Virus record (IMG/VR): IMGVR_UViG_3300025108_000128
Span: 1 to 40,777 of that record
Length of the DNA stretch: 40,777 bases
Reading direction: 5' to 3' (one strand)
DNA from: a virus
This document shows, piece by piece, positions 18,557 through 38,306 of this stretch. The translations under genes were made by a program, and so were the position numbers. The notes under the pieces were generated by a model, which did no database searches, had not been told where the DNA came from, and worked only from the letters and a program-made list of their open reading frames with translations. Positions within the stretch are counted from its first letter, which is position 1. Each line of letters begins with the position of its first letter.

Positions 18557-18915
18557 CAGTGAGCGCTCCCTTGAGTAATAGCCCGCGCCAGAGAGGCATT
18601 CGGGATTTCAATGACGTGCTTCGACCGCTCCTGGCGCTTTTCCTGAATGTGTCGCTTCACACCGCCGACCATCCCCAACAGATACTCCCGGCTGGTTTGA
18701 TTCAGGTCGAAGACAATTTGAACGCTGATCTTGTCGGCAGTGTGGAACACGAACGCAATCTTGCTGCGATCCTTGGTGTTGTACTTCACCAGCACCCCGG
18801 TGCGCTTGCAGGCCTTCTCGTCGGCCAGCTCCTTGGACGCAAAGCGGGCCAGCAGGTCTTTGATCTTCTCGATCAATTCCCCAACTGCTTGGTGCTGCTG
18901 CTTGTTCAGTGTCAC
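18556..18915 (-). CDS. Small protein between terminase and portal, unknown
   Basis: The GTG at 18915 is preferred, giving 119 residues. GGGAG lies seven bases upstream and the GTGA overlaps the terminase stop. A GTG two codons earlier lies too close to that site. The protein is basic and helical at the start (KQQHQAVGELIEKIKDLLARFASKELADEK). A strand pair follows (KIAFVFHTADKISVQIVFDL), then a helical C-terminal half with SREYLLGMVGGVKRHIQEKRQ. The family is not recognised. A head or packaging accessory role is possible from position alone. Confidence 0.65.
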   Translation of the reverse strand: MTLNKQQHQAVGELIEKIKDLLARFASKELADEKACKRTGVLVKYNTKDRSKIAFVFHTADKISVQIVFDLNQTSREYLLGMVGGVKRHIQEKRQERSKHVIEIPNASLARAITQGSAH

Positions 18916-20438
18916 GTCCACGCTCCCATGCCAGCGCCGGACTGAACCGGTCTGGCGGCCTGATATTGATTGCCGAAAATTGGTGCCCGCGCCAATGTCT
19001 CAAAGGCCTTTGCCCCGTGGCTGGCCCAGTCATGGCGAGGCTGGTTGCTGTAGGTGCCCCGGTTGGCAAGCCACTCGCGCTTGTAGTTCTCCAGGGTCTT
19101 GATGCCGAATTCGCACCGCTCTTCATCGAAGACGCAAAGCGGCAGCCGTTGGCGCACTGCCTCCCGCCCTTCCCGCATATCGCTAATGCGCGGGATAACC
19201 TCGAAGGCAATGCCGTAATCCTGCAGGGCGATTTCACGCCGGGTGCGGGTTTCGTCGCCACCACCAAATAGCTCCCGGACTTCCAGATCATGCGGCCCGA
19301 AGTGCCGGCCGTAGCTGTAGCCCTTCTCTGTCAGCATCTTCGCGTAGTGCGACAGGCTGGCATCGCTGTGCTCGTAGTAGTCGATGACCCGGATTTCCCG
19401 GCCAGTCACCTGGAAGAACCAGATGGCCGTTGCGTCATTCATCCCCAGATCCCAAGCGGTATGGACCTGCAAGTGCTCACTGATCGGCACCGTGGTGATC
19501 CGGCCTCCTTGGCGCAGCTCGCGAATCAGACCGGAGTAGTAAGCGCCCTCGATGGCGACCTCAAAGGCTTCATCGGGATGCGACGGGTATTCCCGGTGCA
19601 TATCCTCAGTGCCTTGGTCAGCCTCTTTCAGGACGTACCATGCCTTCTGGCCAGGCATCAGCTTGATGCCGTGCTCTTTCTTGAGCTTGTCGAAATACTC
19701 CCGCAGGCGATGCGGGATGGTGATGCCGGTCGGGTCCGTCATGTAGCCCGGATCCATCCACCACGCGAAAAAATGAAACTTCCACTCCAGCTTGCGCAGA
19801 TCCCGGCCTTCGGCATTGGCCCTGTCTGTATGCTCCCTGGCCACCTGAACCCGGTCGAAAAACTCCCCTTCGTTCCCTTCTGCCGTGGATTCCACGTCAA
19901 TCAGGTTGCCCTCGGCCACCGTGTTGAACGCACCAGTGCGAATCTCACGGGCCTTCTGGGGGTACTTGGCAGCAATCTTGCCCAGCTCGGACACATGCAA
20001 CTGCTGAAATGTCCCGCCCCGAAGGCTGGTACCCACCGTCACACTGGATCCGTTGGCAAATTTCAGCTTGCGGGCGTTGTCCTGCTTGGTGGCAAACTTC
20101 GCCAGAAGCGGAGCCGGCAGGCTCTCAAACGCAAATTTCAGCTTGTTCTCGAAGATGTCACCGGCCGTATCCAGATCCTGGGCGATGACGCCGGCACTCC
20201 AGTTGTTGTTGAACAGACAGCGATCCAGCATGTCCACCTGAATCACGGTGGAGAAGCCCATTTGCCTGGCCTTCAACTCCACGTTCAGGTAGTGGCGGTT
20301 CTGCAGGTACCACGTCTGCGCCCGGTTGGGCCTGAACAGCACCTTTTCCCCGTACTTGTCGAGGATGTAGTACAGGTTATTCAGCCGCCACCAGCGATTA
20401 CTGAAGTGCTTTTTAAGATCATTCGCCGTCAGCGTCAT
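18912..20438 (-). CDS. terL: Terminase large subunit (packaging ATPase and nuclease)
   Basis: The ATG at 20438 gives 508 residues; a TTG nine bases upstream is possible but has a poorer context. A Walker A-like ARQMGFST lies near residues 57-64, preceded by helical packing segments. A Walker B-like QLHVSELGKI lies near 145. The C-terminal nuclease half begins at AWDLGMNDATAIWFFQ, with acidic residues for metal binding. HFGPHDLEV follows, and RHDWASHGAKAFETLA closes the domain. The protein translocates DNA into the prohead and cuts it. It overlaps the small subunit gene by 20 bases. The type of packaging (headful or site-specific) cannot be told from this alone. Confidence 0.92.
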   Translation of the reverse strand: MTLTANDLKKHFSNRWWRLNNLYYILDKYGEKVLFRPNRAQTWYLQNRHYLNVELKARQMGFSTVIQVDMLDRCLFNNNWSAGVIAQDLDTAGDIFENKLKFAFESLPAPLLAKFATKQDNARKLKFANGSSVTVGTSLRGGTFQQLHVSELGKIAAKYPQKAREIRTGAFNTVAEGNLIDVESTAEGNEGEFFDRVQVAREHTDRANAEGRDLRKLEWKFHFFAWWMDPGYMTDPTGITIPHRLREYFDKLKKEHGIKLMPGQKAWYVLKEADQGTEDMHREYPSHPDEAFEVAIEGAYYSGLIRELRQGGRITTVPISEHLQVHTAWDLGMNDATAIWFFQVTGREIRVIDYYEHSDASLSHYAKMLTEKGYSYGRHFGPHDLEVRELFGGGDETRTRREIALQDYGIAFEVIPRISDMREGREAVRQRLPLCVFDEERCEFGIKTLENYKREWLANRGTYSNQPRHDWASHGAKAFETLARAPIFGNQYQAARPVQSGAGMGAWT

Positions 20439-21063
20439 AACCGCCAACGCCCCGCGAACTGTCCATCACGGAATCAAGCAACTCATCCAGCGGATCTTTC
20501 TCGCTTGGCTGCTCATCCAGGTTGAACGCAGTGCGCTCCAGCCCCTGCAGCACCTTCATGCTGTTGGCCATATCCCGCATCACACCAGCTCGTGACTGCA
20601 GAGAGACAGCTCGCCGAGCTGCAGCCCTGGCTTTGCCATCCCACTCTTCATCATCGGCCTGCTTCTCGAGGACATCACCAATGGTTTCGTTGTGAACTGT
20701 GCTGTCACGCAGCTCAGTCATCAGCAGCCCACAGATACCGCGAGCATCATTGATGTCCCGGCGGTGAGTCCGAATGATTTCAGCCCCACGCTCAGCAGCC
20801 TCTTCAACAATGGCTGAGTCTTCCTGCGCGTTAGGGGTGCGAAGTTCAGTGCGAAGTAATTTATCTTTTGTCCGCTTCTGAACGTCCTGAGTCAGGTCAC
20901 GGGACCAGCCTTCCTTCTTCGCTTTCTGGCGAATGGCTGAATCAGTCGGGCCATGCTTCTTGCCAATCTCACGAATGCTCAGCTGACCAGCACGATACTC
21001 ACGCTCAATAGCTTCCCAGTCGTACTTCTTCCGGGTTGTCTTGGCTTTCGTGCTCTTAGTCAT
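20419..21063 (-). CDS. terS: Terminase small subunit
   Basis: This is a 214-residue protein from the ATG at 21063 (ATGA overlap). Residues 14-55 form a helix-turn-helix: YDWEAIEREYRAGQLSIREIGKKHG, then TDSAIRQKAKKEGW. This is the common DNA-recognition module of small terminases. Helical oligomerisation segments occupy residues 75-175, and the C-terminus is acidic (DPLDELLDSVMDS). It would bind the packaging site and hand DNA to the large subunit, whose gene follows with an overlap. Confidence 0.85.
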   Translation of the reverse strand: MTKSTKAKTTRKKYDWEAIEREYRAGQLSIREIGKKHGPTDSAIRQKAKKEGWSRDLTQDVQKRTKDKLLRTELRTPNAQEDSAIVEEAAERGAEIIRTHRRDINDARGICGLLMTELRDSTVHNETIGDVLEKQADDEEWDGKARAAARRAVSLQSRAGVMRDMANSMKVLQGLERTAFNLDEQPSEKDPLDELLDSVMDSSRGVGGYDADGE

Positions 21064-21368
21064 AACTGCAGGTCATCCCAAGAATGCAGCACCCCACAGC
21101 CAATGCACTGCGCACCTTCGCGGCGAACAGTGAACACTTGGCAGTCACAGGCGCTGCAGGTGAATCGTTCTACGCCATCATCCGGCGTCACATGCTGGGT
21201 GAAGTATCCACGGGAAGAATCACAGCCCGGGCAATCCAGACCGGCATACTGTCCTACCGGGGCAACTGCTAGCCACTCACGTTTGCAGTGCTGGCAACGG
21301 GCTGGGCCGCTCAAGTGTGGCTGGCGCTCCGCTCTTGCCTGAGCCAGATCCGCCACATCCCCTGTCAT
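21060..21368 (-). CDS. Small zinc-ribbon protein, unknown
   Basis: This is a 102-residue protein whose ATG at 21368 overlaps the preceding TAA. It carries four cysteine pairs: CQHCK near residue 25, CPGC near 46, CSACDC near 71 and CIGC near 88. This suggests two zinc ribbons. Such proteins bind nucleic acid or stabilise partners. It lies directly before the terminase small subunit, so a packaging accessory role is possible, but no family name is supported. Confidence 0.68.
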   Translation of the reverse strand: MTGDVADLAQARAERQPHLSGPARCQHCKREWLAVAPVGQYAGLDCPGCDSSRGYFTQHVTPDDGVERFTCSACDCQVFTVRREGAQCIGCGVLHSWDDLQL

Positions 21369-21919
21369 TACTCGTCCCCACCCATGGACTTGCGCAGCTC
21401 TTCCTCGTTTACCGGGGTAAAGCCGTCAATGTGGCACAAGGGCTGGTACTCCCCGTCCTCCCGATACAGAAGGTACATGCCGATCCATTCTTGAGGTGGT
21501 AGGACAGAAGCATGCCGCTCGCTTATTTCCGCCTCAAACCCACCTGTGAGGCGAACATCAACACCAGGCTTCATGTGTGACTTCATCAAGTCCACGATGC
21601 GGGCAACCCGAACCAGCTTGCCAGAGTTGTCCCGATACAATGGCCACTCCCCCGGGGGAATCTCTTCAGGCGCATTGGTGGGGCTCTCTTCCTTCAAGCG
21701 GAAGGCGATCAGCTCTTCCACCTTGCCCATGGCGATCTTCAACGCCTCTACCCGGCCGATTTCCTCATCGAATGAGGCGGGGTTCGCGCAATGAGACTGG
21801 CCAACCACCTCGTGGCCGTTATCCATCTGGATGACGCACAGAGTGGTAACCGCGCCCAAGCGGCCGTATTCGATGTTGGTGATGGCTTTCTCGGCCAGGT
21901 CAGGGATATTTGGCGCCAT
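21368..21919 (-). CDS. Phage Gp49/66-like family protein
   Basis: The ATG at 21919 (GAGG five bases upstream) gives 183 residues. Residues 20-85 match the pattern of the Gp49/gp66 family: TLCVIQMDNGHEVVGQSHCANP, then FDEEIGRVEALKIAM. These are small proteins of unknown function that are frequent in tailed phages. The C-terminal half is separate, with two short beta-rich segments (PGVDVRLTGGFEAEIS, MYLLYREDGEYQPLCHI), and may be a fused second module. It is the first gene after the lysis gene, the tRNA and a terminator. Confidence 0.72.
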   Translation of the reverse strand: MAPNIPDLAEKAITNIEYGRLGAVTTLCVIQMDNGHEVVGQSHCANPASFDEEIGRVEALKIAMGKVEELIAFRLKEESPTNAPEEIPPGEWPLYRDNSGKLVRVARIVDLMKSHMKPGVDVRLTGGFEAEISERHASVLPPQEWIGMYLLYREDGEYQPLCHIDGFTPVNEEELRKSMGGDE

Positions 21920-21932
21920 GGGTACCTCAAAT

Positions 21933-21956
21933 AAAAAAGCCCGCACTTGGCGGGCT
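21933..21956 (-). terminator. Rho-independent terminator after the tRNA
   Basis: A seven-base stem (AGCCCGC and its complement) with a five-base loop is followed by six T on the leftward strand. It begins 23 bases after the tRNA 3' end and lies just upstream of the start of the next gene, so late transcription of terminase and head genes must read through it. Confidence 0.88.
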
Positions 21957-21978
21957 GGCTTCGGGTGAGGAAGCTAAA

Positions 21979-22055
21979 TGGTTGCAGGGGCTGGACTCGA
22001 ACCAGCGACCTCCGAGCTATGAACCCGGCGAACTACCAGACTGTTCCACCCTGCG
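21979..22055 (-). tRNA. Initiator-type tRNA-Met (CAT anticodon)
   Basis: A complete 77-base cloverleaf with encoded CCA reads leftward. Base 1 is C and base 72 is A, so the first acceptor pair is open; the other six pair. The D stem GAAC/GTTC includes A11:T24. The anticodon loop is TTCATAG with anticodon CAT. The anticodon stem is CCGGG/CTCGG, with G:C, G:T, G:C at the three inner pairs. The T arm is GCTGG-TTCGAGT-CCAGC. The open 1:72 pair, A11:T24 and near-complete GGG/CCC anticodon stem are hallmarks of bacterial initiator tRNA rather than elongator Met or Ile-lysidine tRNA. Its 5' half covers the last codons and the TAG stop of the lysis gene. Confidence 0.93.
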
Positions 22056-22854
22056 ATTGATCCGGTTTATCTGGGGTCAGGCATAGCTCCATTTCCGCCA
22101 GCCTTCGTTTATGTAGACCCAAGACATAAGCGCCCCCTACATACGACCAGTTGGCCGCTCCGTTCGGCTTCCAGGCTAACGCCCTGCACCCATCAGCCAG
22201 CCTGCCATCGTTAATCAGTCTTACGCTGTAACTGCCACAGGTCTTCGGCCAACCAAAGTTATGGGCATGAGAGCTGAGGGCGTCGAACGTGTTCTGCGAA
22301 ACCTCAACTGAAAGGCATTCATCCAGGTATATCTGGGTCTGCTCCACAATGCGCCGCTCTTCCTGCTCGCACTCTTCATCAGTCCAGACATCACCGACCG
22401 CCATGGGCTTGCTCGATGTGTAGGGCGTGATGCCCTTGCAGACCGTGGGTAACCCACCGGCCAGCTTGTCGGCGTAGACGGTGTTCTGGCCCTCTCCTTC
22501 CCACAGACCAAGGAACGCCAAAAGCGAGGCCGAAGCTAGAGTGAGCCCGCCCAACACCTTGATCTTGGCAACACCGCCCTGCCTTCGCCCTTGGCGAGCC
22601 TTGCGCCGCTTCGCCTTGGACGATCTCCAGGTCTTGAATCTTTCCCAGGCAGCACATAGCGCCAAAAAGTGCTTGCAGAACTGGTGAATCAACAAACCCA
22701 CCAGATAAATCAAGGTCAGGGTGGTTACCCACTGCTCGGGGGTGAGGCCAAGCCACATGGCACCAGACAGGCCCACAGGTAGAGCCACCTTCGCGCCTTC
22801 AACACCAAGATCATGCGCAGGGCTCATGCGGCCCCCTTGTGGTTGTCCGTACAT
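22033..22854 (-). CDS. Holin-endolysin fusion (GH24-type lysozyme with two membrane segments)
   Basis: The ATG at 22854 (GGAGG nine bases upstream) gives 273 residues; a TTG six bases earlier is less likely. Residues about 20-60 resemble a small holin: AKVALPVGLSGAMWLG, then TLTLIYLVGLLIHQF, with a basic tail to residue 95 (RSSKAKRRKARQGRRQ). A second hydrophobic stretch at 98-117 looks like the signal-anchor of a SAR endolysin. Residues 118-260 are a GH24 lysozyme: catalytic Glu119 or Glu121, Asp129 and Thr137 in YADKLAGGLPTVCKG, then SSHAHNFG near 195-201. No start codon lies between the two parts, and the frame is continuous. The last codons and TAG stop lie inside the tRNA gene. Confidence 0.85.
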   Translation of the reverse strand: MYGQPQGGRMSPAHDLGVEGAKVALPVGLSGAMWLGLTPEQWVTTLTLIYLVGLLIHQFCKHFLALCAAWERFKTWRSSKAKRRKARQGRRQGGVAKIKVLGGLTLASASLLAFLGLWEGEGQNTVYADKLAGGLPTVCKGITPYTSSKPMAVGDVWTDEECEQEERRIVEQTQIYLDECLSVEVSQNTFDALSSHAHNFGWPKTCGSYSVRLINDGRLADGCRALAWKPNGAANWSYVGGAYVLGLHKRRLAEMELCLTPDKPDQSQGGTVW

Positions 22855-22915
22855 ACCCAATAGCCTCCACTTGTTGGCCCTCCCCCGTTGCAGCAGCCCA
22901 GTCCCCGAGCCAGAA

Positions 22916-22949
22916 ACAAAAAAGCCCCGCCGAGAGAACCCGGCAGGGC
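22916..22949 (-). terminator. Rho-independent terminator upstream of the lysis gene
   Basis: Read leftward, a nine-pair stem (GCCCTGCCG with CGGCGGGGC) is followed by six T. It lies about 60 bases before the lysis gene start and after a second similar hairpin. A terminator pair here resembles the tR' site used by late antiterminators. Confidence 0.85.
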
Positions 22950-22957
22950 CTGAAACG

Positions 22958-22988
22958 AAAAAGCCCCGGCGGTGAGGCCAAGGCTTTT
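22958..22988 (-). terminator. Rho-independent terminator, probably two-way
   Basis: A stem of about ten pairs (AAGCCTTGGC with GCCGGGGCTT) closes a six-base loop. T-rich ends lie on both strands, so it may work in either direction. It is the first of two hairpins between the 71-residue gene and the lysis gene. Confidence 0.75.
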
Positions 22989-23021
22989 AGACAGTTATCC
23001 AACTATGGGGAAATAGTGCCA

Positions 23022-23237
23022 TTAGGGTGTAGGAAGATCAACCATAACTGGCGGCGGTCCAGCCCTCATTGCAATGTCAGTCGCGATATTGCGCACTTCT
23101 TCTGCTGTTATTGATGCCGCAACCAGGCCCTCAGTCAGGGCCTCAATAGGATTGTGACCAGCACGGAGAGCACTAACAACGCGATTGCAGATCGGGCATA
23201 CCCGAGAACGCTCCAACAATTCCTGATCAATCTCCAT
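23022..23237 (-). CDS. Small CxxC protein, unknown
   Basis: This is a 71-residue protein with an ATG at 23237 and AAGGA just upstream. It has one CPIC pair near residue 14 and then a mainly helical region (PIEALTEGLVAASITAEEVRNIATDIAM). It ends with a Pro-rich tail. It stands apart from the neighbouring genes by a 97-base gap upstream and two terminators downstream, and may be transcribed from its own promoter. The family is not recognised. Confidence 0.55.
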   Translation of the reverse strand: MEIDQELLERSRVCPICNRVVSALRAGHNPIEALTEGLVAASITAEEVRNIATDIAMRAGPPPVMVDLPTP

Positions 23238-23334
23238 TTTCCTTCCCCAATTATCGGTGATGTATTACATACAGTGTCGCCGGCAACATGAATACTGGAT
23301 CCCCCGTTGCAGGTACATACCAGCGACTGTAGTG

Positions 23335-23970
23335 TCAGCGATACGCAGCGGGATCCCAGCTGCCGAACGATCCTGCTCCAGCGCTCATCCCAAAATGAGA
23401 CACAGGCGGATGAACCCCAGAAAGCCCGGCCACATGAGGCCACGCCAATCCGAACATGAAGCACATCCCATTCAGCCTGTCACCAATTGCCTGCTGGCGC
23501 TCCCGATCTCGATCCATGAGAGCTTTCATCGCAGCCCCGTGCCTTTCCTGCTCCAGCTGCTCCGCTTCTTCCGCCTTGCGCCTGGCTTCAACCTTCAACT
23601 CAATATCATGCCGGCGGATCACCTTCTCTACCGCATTCCGCACAGCATCCCAGTCCGGTTCCTGCAGGTACTGGACCGGCTCGCGCTCACCTTCTCGCAA
23701 CCAATGCACCCGCACCAATTCCCCGGAATCATCGCGAACCAGTATCGCCCGGTACTCAGGAACCCTGGCCCCGAACTCGACCGGGGAAAAATGCGGACTA
23801 ACACCGTAGTAAACAGCCTTCCCCGCATGCAGGTAACTTTCAATGTGCATCGGGATGAAATCGGCGAATATGGCCTGTGCTTCATCAACAGTGAGCCCGG
23901 CACCACGGCCTATGGACACCTCAAAAGAGCCCCGGCGTTTGTCCGGCGTGTTCAGTAATAGTTGCGACAT
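23335..23970 (-). CDS. Hypothetical protein, unknown
   Basis: This is a 211-residue protein with an ATG at 23970, two bases before the preceding stop. The N-terminal half is globular (VDEAQAIFADFIPMHIESYLHAGKAVYYG, later AILVRDDSGELVRVHWL). A helical, Glu/Arg/Lys-rich coiled coil follows (about 110-160, EARRKAEEAEQLEQERHG). The C-terminal tail is rich in Gly, Ser and Phe. No membrane segment or known motif stands out. It is the last gene of the tight leftward early cluster before the lysis region, where late regulators commonly sit, but nothing in it identifies a regulator. Confidence 0.6.
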   Translation of the reverse strand: MSQLLLNTPDKRRGSFEVSIGRGAGLTVDEAQAIFADFIPMHIESYLHAGKAVYYGVSPHFSPVEFGARVPEYRAILVRDDSGELVRVHWLREGEREPVQYLQEPDWDAVRNAVEKVIRRHDIELKVEARRKAEEAEQLEQERHGAAMKALMDRDRERQQAIGDRLNGMCFMFGLAWPHVAGLSGVHPPVSHFGMSAGAGSFGSWDPAAYR

Positions 23971-23972
23971 AA

Positions 23973-24560
23973 TCAGACTCCCAATACACCCAGAGGCTCA
24001 ATTGCATTCCTCGCCAAATTTTTGCCACGCCGCAGCACCTGCAGTACGGCATCCTCGGCGTTGGCTATCACAGCCATCCACTCCCCGTCATAGAGTGACG
24101 GCCTCTTGATACCCAGGGCGCGCGCGTACCACTCTTTGCCGAACGCAGCCCGGTGCTGGGCCAGCCCCCGAGCATTTATTACTGCCACCTCGCCCACCCT
24201 TCGCAGCTGGCTGTAGTTTTTCTTGGGGTGGCGATCCATTAATGACTCGCCAACCAGTCCACCCAGGCTATGCAGCCGCTCACCAGCATCCCCGTAAACG
24301 TACCGGAACATTTCACGGGGGAATGGCTCAGGGATTACCGCTACGGCAGCAAGGATGCTGTGCGCAAGATCCCGATAGTCCTCACCTGTCCAGCCAGAAA
24401 CCCCTCCGCCAATGATGTTCCCCACCATGGCGTTCGCCAGAACGCCCGCTGGACTTCGGTAATCAGGGCGACTGGCCGTTTCTTCTGCCCACCGGAACGC
24501 AGCGGTGGGCGTCGCCCAACGCAGTGGCGGTAGATCACTACTCCCCAGTGCTATCCCCAT
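23973..24560 (-). CDS. Hypothetical protein; positional candidate for late regulator
   Basis: The ATG at 24560 is chosen because GGGAGGTGATC lies directly upstream, an excellent ribosome site. It gives 195 residues. The protein is helical with conserved-looking Trp and aromatic residues (PPLRWATPTAAFRWAEETASR). A basic C-terminal region follows (KRPSLYDGEWMAVIANAEDAVLQVLRRGKN). The placement is that of lambda Q: after the nin-like genes and before a terminator pair and the lysis gene. I see no zinc-binding cysteines or other clear antiterminator signature. The regulator role is therefore a guess from position. Confidence 0.6.
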   Translation of the reverse strand: MGIALGSSDLPPLRWATPTAAFRWAEETASRPDYRSPAGVLANAMVGNIIGGGVSGWTGEDYRDLAHSILAAVAVIPEPFPREMFRYVYGDAGERLHSLGGLVGESLMDRHPKKNYSQLRRVGEVAVINARGLAQHRAAFGKEWYARALGIKRPSLYDGEWMAVIANAEDAVLQVLRRGKNLARNAIEPLGVLGV

Positions 24561-24562
24561 GA

Positions 24563-24766
24563 TCACCTCCCATTGCGGGTATCGTGGAATTCCTGACAGC
24601 AAATGCAGCGCTTCACGCCACCCACCGCCCGGCGCTTTTCCGGTATCTCGTCGTCACAATCGATGCAGTACTTCAGCGATGAACCCGCCATCTTGGGCCT
24701 GTTCGCCAGGCACCCTGCCGTGAAGTTGTCCATGTACTCGCTTGCCAAATCACCCGAATCAGCCAC
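24563..24766 (-). CDS. TraR/DksA-type C4 zinc finger protein
   Basis: This is a 67-residue protein from a GTG at 24766 with GGAGAA seven bases upstream. Its C-terminal part has two cysteine pairs, CIDC near residue 34 and CICC near 54, flanking IPEKRRAVGGVKR. This is the usual layout of the TraR/DksA finger. A short helical N-terminus is present (ASEYMDNFTAGCLAN). TraR-like proteins bind the secondary channel of RNA polymerase and mimic DksA with ppGpp. Many phages carry such genes in their nin-like regions. Confidence 0.85.
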   Translation of the reverse strand: MADSGDLASEYMDNFTAGCLANRPKMAGSSLKYCIDCDDEIPEKRRAVGGVKRCICCQEFHDTRNGR

Positions 24767-35581: not shown

Positions 35582-35594
35582 TTTGGGGATTACG

Positions 35595-37409
35595 ATGCAG
35601 ACAGTTGAATTCAAGCACTTCCACCTTTTCTGTGGTCTTGGCGGCGGCGCTGCCGGCTTCAACAAAGGCCATGCCCGGGTTGGTTCTCTTGAGGCGGAAT
35701 TCCGCTGCATTGGTGGCGTGGACGTAGACGCTGGCGCCATCAATGACTTCAAGACGCTTGCCGGCGTGCCTGGCACCGTTCTGGATATGTTCGACCGTGA
35801 GCAATACACCATCTTTCACGGCGAAGAGCCGCCGAAAGGCTGGACGGAAGCCTCCCCTGCGGACATCCGTGCAGCAGCCGGCGGAGAGAGCCCCAACATC
35901 GTATTCTTGTCCGCTCCGTGCAAAGGGTTCAGCGGTCTGCTTTCCCAGAGCAAGAGTGCAACCCCGAAGTACCAGGCACTGAACGGCCTGACCTTGCGAG
36001 GCATCTGGCTCACACTGGAAGCCTTCAAGAATGACCCGGCAGAAATGCTGATCTTTGAGAATGTCCCCCGGATTGCTAACCGTGGCCGGCCTCTTCTGGA
36101 TCAAATCTGCGCCCTGCTGCAGGCCTACGGCTATGCGGTGGCAGAAACCACCCATGATTGCGGCGAGCTGGGCGGGCTGGCCCAGAGCCGCAAGCGCTTC
36201 CTGCTGGTGGCCCGCCACCAGGAGAAGGTGCCGGCATTCCTGTACGAGCCGGTGAAGCGCCCGCTGCGCGCTGTGGGCGACATCTTGGGCGATATGCTCA
36301 TGCCCGGTGATGATCTGGCCGGGCCGATGCACCGCATCCCCCGCCTTCAGTGGAAAACGTGGGTTCGGCTGGCCTTTGTTGAGGCCGGCAGCGACTGGCG
36401 CAGCTTGAACAAGCTGGCGGTCGAGGACGGCAATCTAAGCGATTACCTGATTGTCCCCGAATACCGGGCCGGGTACTTGGGCGTGAACGATTGGGATCAG
36501 TCCATGGGTACCGTGGCTGGCCGTAACACCCCCAGCAACGGCAGTTTCTCCGTGGCCGACCCGCGCTTTGCAGTGAGCGGCAAATGGAAGGACGGCCAGG
36601 CTTACGGCGTCCGCCGTTGGGAAGACCCCACCGGCACCGTCACTGGCCAGCAGTCAGCCGGCCAAGGCGCGTTCAGCGTGGCTGACCCCCGCCACCATGG
36701 CCCGGACAAACATAGCAACTGTTTCCGGGTGGTGCCGTGGGAGCGCGAATGCGGCGCCGTCACCTCTGCCCACGGCAGTGGCCAGTGTGTAGCCGACCCC
36801 CGCGGCAACAGCTTCACCGGCAAGTACCGGGTGACCGACTTCAACGGCCCGGCCGGCACCGTGATTTCTGGCAGCACCACCGGTCAGGGCGCCTTTGCCG
36901 TGGCGGATCCGCGCCCGGGCATTCAGCGCCAGCGTGGTGACCACTACCTGACCGGCGGCCACTACGGCGTTGTGCCCTGGGCAGCCAACTGCGGCGCAGT
37001 GTCCGGCTTTGCCAGTCACGACAATGGCCGGTGGTCAGTAGCCGACCCGCGTTTTACAGAAAGCGATGAAAATTATTCCGAAATTATTCCGGCGCAGACC
37101 GACCGGCTTGTCGCGATGATCCGCGCCCTCGACGGCACCTGGCACCGCCCCTTCACCACCTTGGAGCTGGCAGCCCTGCAGGGGCTGGTGGATCCGGTAG
37201 AAAAATTGGAGCTGGACGGCCTCAGCGATTCCGCATGGCGGGAGCGTATCGGTAACGCGGTGCCGCCGCCGGCGGCCCAAGCAATCGCTTCCATGATGGG
37301 CGAAACCATGCTGCTGGCCATGACCGGTGAAACCTTCGTACTCAGCAGCACACCGGTATGGGTGCGGGATATTGCGACAGCTATCGCACTGCCCGGCGGT
37401 GCCTCCTGA
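35595..37409 (+). CDS. C5 cytosine DNA methyltransferase with VADPR repeats
   Basis: The ATG at 35595 (GGGG upstream) gives 604 residues; an upstream TTG is less likely. Motif I is FCGLGGGAAGF (12-22). The catalytic Cys109 lies in SAPCKGFS. Motif VI is FENVPRI (154-160), and motif VIII is QSRKRFLL (197-204). Motifs IX-X lie in LQGLVDP and IGNAVPPP (near 553-559). Between them a region of about 200 residues carries five units ending in VADPR at about 320, 362, 399, 436 and 482. Each has an aromatic and W/G-TV pattern. This lies where the target recognition domain sits. It could protect phage DNA from restriction. The repeats are unusual for this family. Confidence 0.92.
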   Translation: MQTVEFKHFHLFCGLGGGAAGFNKGHARVGSLEAEFRCIGGVDVDAGAINDFKTLAGVPGTVLDMFDREQYTIFHGEEPPKGWTEASPADIRAAAGGESPNIVFLSAPCKGFSGLLSQSKSATPKYQALNGLTLRGIWLTLEAFKNDPAEMLIFENVPRIANRGRPLLDQICALLQAYGYAVAETTHDCGELGGLAQSRKRFLLVARHQEKVPAFLYEPVKRPLRAVGDILGDMLMPGDDLAGPMHRIPRLQWKTWVRLAFVEAGSDWRSLNKLAVEDGNLSDYLIVPEYRAGYLGVNDWDQSMGTVAGRNTPSNGSFSVADPRFAVSGKWKDGQAYGVRRWEDPTGTVTGQQSAGQGAFSVADPRHHGPDKHSNCFRVVPWERECGAVTSAHGSGQCVADPRGNSFTGKYRVTDFNGPAGTVISGSTTGQGAFAVADPRPGIQRQRGDHYLTGGHYGVVPWAANCGAVSGFASHDNGRWSVADPRFTESDENYSEIIPAQTDRLVAMIRALDGTWHRPFTTLELAALQGLVDPVEKLELDGLSDSAWRERIGNAVPPPAAQAIASMMGETMLLAMTGETFVLSSTPVWVRDIATAIALPGGAS

Positions 37410-37679: not shown

Positions 37680-38306
37680 ATGAGCGTATCAGCCTACCCA
37701 CTGAGCTGGCCTTTGCAGGTTCAGCGCAAGCCGAACCCTGCCCGGGCCCGGTTCTCTCAAGACGGCAAGCCCCTGAGCATTGCATCTGCCCGGCGCCGAC
37801 TGCTTGAGGAAATCGACAAGATCACCAAATACGGCCGGCCGTACCGCGTTGATCCGGACAAGGTAGTCATCAGCACCAATGTCCGGACCCGCAATGATGG
37901 CCTGCCCTACTCCAATGTTCGGGAGCCGGAAGACTCGGCCGTGGCCGTGTACTTCGATCTGGACGGCGTACCTCACTGTTTGCCCTGTGACGCCTGGGAC
38001 CGGGTAGCGGACAACCTTGCCGCTATTGCTGCCCATATCGGCGCCATGCGCGGCATGGAGCGCTGGGGAGTGGCTGACATCCGGCAGGCGTTCAGTGGCT
38101 TTCAGGCCCTGCCCTCTTCTGCCAGCAGCAACCCCGGCGCTTGGTGGGCCGTTCTCGGTGTAACCCAGGGCGCTGACTTCGACACCGTGCGAGCCGCTTA
38201 CCAGCAAAAGCGCAAAGCCACCCACCCGGACTATGGCGGTACCGCCGGACAGTTCCAAGTCGTGCAGCAGGCATGGCGCCAGTTTCAGGAGCAATACGAT
38301 GAGTGA
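37680..38306 (+). CDS. Phage J-domain protein
   Basis: This is a 208-residue protein from the ATG at 37680. The N-terminal 140 residues are an unassigned globular part (RARFSQDGKPLSIASARRRL, VAVYFDLDGVPHCLPCDAW). The last 55 residues read as a J domain: WWAVLGVTQGADFDTVRAAYQQ, then RKATHPDYGG with the HPD motif, then FQVVQQAWRQFQ. J domains activate Hsp70 chaperones. In phages they are thought to recruit DnaK to viral complexes. It overlaps the next gene by eight bases. Confidence 0.82.
   Translation: MSVSAYPLSWPLQVQRKPNPARARFSQDGKPLSIASARRRLLEEIDKITKYGRPYRVDPDKVVISTNVRTRNDGLPYSNVREPEDSAVAVYFDLDGVPHCLPCDAWDRVADNLAAIAAHIGAMRGMERWGVADIRQAFSGFQALPSSASSNPGAWWAVLGVTQGADFDTVRAAYQQKRKATHPDYGGTAGQFQVVQQAWRQFQEQYDE

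Follow-up and report, generated by a model that had tools for sequence, protein, structure and literature searches.

An initiator-type tRNA gene between lysis and packaging genes

The window analysed here is a 40,777-base stretch of viral DNA that makes up a whole IMG/VR virus record. ARAGORN identified a single tRNA in it, a tRNA-Met(cat) on the minus strand, which also carries the lysis and structural genes, and the tRNA gene (CGCAGGGTGGAACAGTCTGGTAGTTCGCCGGGTTCATAGCTCGGAGGTCGCTGGTTCGAGTCCAGCCCCTGCAACCA) matched Rfam RF00005 over its full length (55.5 bits, E = 1.9e-9). Read along the minus strand, the locus contains the following features.

22922..22979, minus: terminator-like hairpins, two in tandem, preceding the lysis gene (z = -5.6)
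22033..22860, minus: lysis gene, a holin-like N-terminal part and a phage lysozyme (PF00959) in one frame
21979..22055, minus: tRNA-Met(CAU), initiator-type, 77 nt with CCA encoded (ARAGORN, Rfam RF00005, identity elements)
21938..21956, minus: intrinsic terminator, 7-bp stem and T run, 22 nt downstream of the tRNA (z = -2.9)
21368..21946, minus: Phage_gp49_66 family gene (PF13876), the first after the tRNA terminator
20419..21063, minus: terminase small subunit
18912..20447, minus: terminase large subunit

The minus strand carries CII-like, O-like, NinB-like, YbcO-like nuclease and RusA-like genes and several unrecognised frames, and continues through the hairpins, the holin-like/lysozyme frame, the tRNA, its terminator, the gp49_66-family gene and the terminase subunits to the portal and head genes. 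A CI-like repressor, an Erf-like annealing protein, a RecE-like exonuclease, an SSB and a cytosine methylase are encoded on the plus strand. The predicted gene layout of this uncultured virus is that of a temperate lambdoid-type phage, and the tandem hairpins occupy a position reminiscent of the tR' in lambdoid late leaders. Fragments of this phage, 100% identical, are present in other viral contigs (L002, L003 and L010), which may not be independent samples. No near DNA match was found among deposited phages, and a search of genomes for prophage relatives returned none via the portal and two distant ones via the terminase.

The tRNA gene is complete and embedded in phage gene order, from lysozyme to terminase, which supports its original description as phage-encoded. 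Since it lies on the late strand between these genes, it is also likely to be expressed with the late genes, as had been proposed, a timing suggested by gene order. A scan of 21300-24700 detected no sigma-70-like promoter for the minus strand, so that co-transcription of the tRNA with the lysozyme would be the simplest reading. No Q-like antiterminator or late regulator was recognised in 23135-24602; the two larger frames of this interval bear no similarity to the gene preceding the tRNA of Pseudomonas phage D3, and one of them bears none to the PHB09 gene.

Several neighbouring frames have features of their own. Within the uninterrupted lysis frame, residues 16-65 are holin-like (phrog_920, E = 4e-8) and residues 123-256 correspond to the phage lysozyme, so it represents either a holin-lysozyme fusion or two genes without an intervening stop. 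On the plus strand, 35583-37409 encodes a 608-residue cytosine-specific DNA methylase in which a long insert splits the conserved blocks (matches at ~10-280 and 497-577), and 37680-38306 encodes a phrog_9210 family protein with a weak C-terminal DnaJ-like match just below the Pfam cut-off.

Twenty of the 21 cloverleaf pairs of the tRNA are formed, far beyond chance, the sole exception being 1:72, where C1 and A72 make no Watson-Crick pair. A mismatch at this position is a hallmark of bacterial initiator tRNAs. Position 11:24 is A11:U24, purine:pyrimidine as in the E. coli initiator, and the anticodon stem consists of G29:C41, G30:U40 and G31:C39, its middle pair being G:U rather than G:C. The single-strand folding energy (z = -1.2) is not decisive. 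All features listed in the original prediction (encoded CCA, C1/A72, A11:U24, CAU and a GGG/CCC stem with G30:U40 in the middle) are present and were correctly stated; it missed, however, the G38 that replaces A38 in the anticodon loop (UUCAUAG, also with U32), and did not name the strand, which is minus. G30:U40 is a weakened form of a conserved initiator feature and counts against function; mutating all three anticodon-stem G:C pairs inactivates the E. coli initiator (PMC10486304).

Relatives in phages and cells

Initiator and elongator type was judged by identity counts, with E. coli K-12 genes taken from NC_000913.3. The tRNA shares 62/77 identities with the initiator gene metZ, compared with 44/77 for the elongator gene metT and 48 aligned identities for ileX. 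Among CAU tRNAs taken from phage loci, those with the most identities, at 66, 65 and 65, are of the initiator type, the second of them being the host-derived Y6 gene, and 16 others reach at most 58. Among 369 sampled gammaproteobacterial genomes the twelve best matches are all initiators, led by L173 with 65/77 identities (84%), although these genomes are a sample and a closer host gene may exist. These matches in phages and cells bear out the initiator type originally assigned; the comparison proposed for refuting it, a search for a best match to an elongator Met or Ile-CAU tRNA, was run and gave initiators.

Three of the phage loci were set aside. The match in Pseudomonas phage Y6 (L014, OQ572408.1, 'UNVERIFIED') was rejected as a phage tRNA: with RimP and NusA beside tRNA-Leu and tRNA-Met, this stretch is bacterial chromosome, probably contamination. 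The two tRNAs at 58 identities, from PHB09 (L017 3486-3560) and PfAn1 (L019 3489-3564), combine a GGG/CCC anticodon stem with elongator-like C11:G24 and C38; as possible hybrids or elongator-like tRNAs, they were rejected as further examples.

With E. coli fMet as the query, at least 294 of 50,697 phage records matched at E <= 1e-5, some of them host contamination, and an initiator pattern search returned at least 119 viral-contig stretches. From the fMet-query, pattern and other loci, 120 distinct CAU tRNAs were collected among the matches listed, 106 of which have G29:C41 and G31:C39 and mostly A11:U24; some of the genes counted are host contamination (phage Y6) or probably attachment sites, with serine recombinases next to them. 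Contrary to the rarity implied at the outset, initiator-type tRNAs appear to be fairly common in phages, and the window gene would be one more of an existing class. The D3 gene is already annotated as tRNA-Met in its record, so the kind exists in databases, and L008 carries an initiator-like tRNA upstream of its terminase. A late-junction position was rejected as a rule for the class, the nearest genes being diverse (terminase, integrase, recombinase, Q-like). A search covering few subscription papers found none that treats phage initiator tRNAs as a class, and the word 'initiator' is absent from PMC6409571.

The tRNA differs from its nearest host initiator, L173, at 12 positions, all of them transitions and none breaking a pair. 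Six form three compensatory double changes (4:69, 12:23 and 27:43), one turned 30:40 into a wobble, another turned the 50:64 wobble into a Watson-Crick pair, and four lie in loops (32, 38, 57 and 59). When 12 transitions were placed at random, 0.15% of trials kept every pair and included three or more double changes; for 12 arbitrary substitutions the figure was 0.004%. L173 is not the true ancestor, which makes these percentages indicative only. Such pair-preserving differences with compensatory doubles point to a phage gene that is old and under selection, not to one freshly captured or to a decaying relic.

Of the origins initially considered, capture of a host gene would thus have to be ancient, since the closest host gene found already differs at 12 positions. 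Another is an attachment relic or att fragment. Viral contigs do exist in which an fMet-type tRNA stands beside a serine recombinase (in L084 and L153 it adjoins a large one of the Ccr/XisF kind), a sign that some phages use fMet genes to integrate; a tRNA useless to the phage might in this way have been picked up when the phage integrated into, or excised imprecisely from, a host fMet gene. The window gene, however, is complete with its CCA, and the record, which may be incomplete, contains no match to tyrosine (PF00589) or serine (PF00239) integrases, no partial or duplicated tRNA end and no second copy or fragment of the tRNA longer than 12 nt. With compensatory changes in the stems and no near-identical host gene in the 369 sampled genomes, the relic reading is already weakened, and we regard it as very improbable.

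The lysozyme overlap and position 38

Two local details of the gene are unusual: the lysozyme ends inside the tRNA, and G38 lies at the bond cut by an enteric VapC. The lysozyme frame enters the tRNA by 23 nt and stops at the TAG of the D-loop GGTAG, so that its last 8 codons, stop included, fall within the tRNA 5' end and D-loop. Related lysozymes at four loci end about ten residues earlier; no tRNA is present at three of these loci, and at the fourth (L052) a tRNA-Gly was called on the opposite strand. The window tRNA thus appears to have arrived where the lysozyme gene ends and to have supplied its stop codon, and an RNase P cut at the tRNA 5' end would then leave the lysozyme message without one.

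This arrangement could point to an RNA-processing device, in which the tRNA fold would chiefly provide the lysis transcript with a cleavage site or a 3' end, with decoding secondary, and RNase P would lower lysozyme output by removing the stop. The stop 23 nt inside the tRNA and the earlier ends of the related lysozymes fit such a device, but a processing signal needs none of C1/A72, A11:U24 and the G-rich anticodon stem, yet all are kept. Nor are overlaps enriched: frames of at least 100 residues end inside 4 of the 106 phage initiator-like tRNAs among the matches listed, against 7.8% of random places, and upstream-frame overlap was rejected as a feature of the class. We consider the device improbable. 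Still less probable is a functional overlap in which each transcript yields lysozyme or initiator tRNA, not both, because maturation by RNase P strips the lysozyme stop codon; tRNA supply would then be coupled to lysis timing, with G38 resisting fMet-cutting toxins.

An enteric VapC cuts initiator tRNA between A38 and C39 (PMC4105405), and G38 is a base change at this very bond. Among the matches listed, A38 is kept in 103 of the 106 initiator-like phage tRNAs, two others being hybrid-like tRNAs with C38, and G30:U40 occurs in 4 of the 106; most of the survey came from a pattern that permitted G38 as well as G30:U40, so the pattern did not produce their rarity. Phage tRNAs with anticodon-loop changes at nuclease sites have been proposed as escape variants (PMC10264068), an idea that the G38 tRNA fits, and nuclease escape by it is plausible. 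The gene might even be kept mainly because host VapC-type toxins cut fMet tRNA, with G38, together with U32 and G30:U40, hindering cutting of the phage copy. Against this, there is a single sequence, and A38 persists in nearly all other phage initiators, which means that escape cannot account for the class in general. As the main reason for this gene we judge it unlikely; it is a sharper form of the explanation preferred below, not its opposite.

Proposed function and comparison with known systems

We favour, with a probability of roughly two-thirds, a functional, long-resident phage initiator tRNA that shares a transcript with the lysis gene and provides fMet-tRNA for translating phage messages. 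The initiator elements are present, the anticodon stem with G:U as its middle pair, and the closest sequences are initiators in phages and cells; the pair-keeping differences, encoded CCA, directly downstream terminator and same-strand position between lysozyme and terminase lend further support. The reading is weakened by G30:U40, by the lack of a promoter-like site on the minus strand and of a recognised late regulator in the intervals searched, and by a position that is not conserved in the class.

We infer a late benefit to the phage by the following route. The tRNA would form the 3' part of a minus-strand lysozyme-tRNA-terminator transcript, from which host RNase P and 3' nucleases would free it. 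MetRS would charge it, the 1:72 mismatch would let transformylase formylate it, and through its G-rich anticodon stem it would be accepted by IF2 and the 30S P site, so that it could top up or replace host fMet-tRNA during translation of phage mRNAs. The usual explanation of phage tRNAs, codon compensation, does not suit an initiator tRNA well. If phage initiator tRNAs work, they make it simple to test whether infection is limited by initiation capacity and whether fMet-cutting toxins act as phage defence.

The tRNA-Met genes of Pseudomonas phage D3 (NC_002484) and of phage Haboob resemble the window tRNA (63/77) in A11:U24, the outer pairs of the GGG/CCC stem and a 1:72 mismatch, theirs being C1/U72. 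They follow NinG-region genes and precede a holin or terminase, placing the D3 gene near the same early/late junction. In contrast to the window tRNA, which stands alone, follows and overlaps the lysozyme and has G38 and G30:U40, they overlap no gene, are followed by three elongator tRNAs and retain A38 and a full G:C stem.

E. coli metZ, metW and metV share with the window tRNA its length, CCA, C1/A72, A11:U24, CAU and the outer pairs of the GGG/CCC stem; the 15 changes between them, among which the window has G30:U40, U32 and G38, break no pair. In the late leader of Shiga-toxin-converting lambdoid phages, tRNA genes lie between the late regulator and the genes for lysis or packaging. Those are elongators that precede the lysis genes, whereas the window has one initiator after the lysozyme.

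The anticodon-nuclease-resistant phage tRNAs of PMC10264068 likewise carry a changed base at the bond that an anticodon-loop nuclease cuts. The phages described there differ in having generally avoided tRNA-fMet where VapC targets it, an avoidance that contrasts with the initiator-type genes found in many phages.
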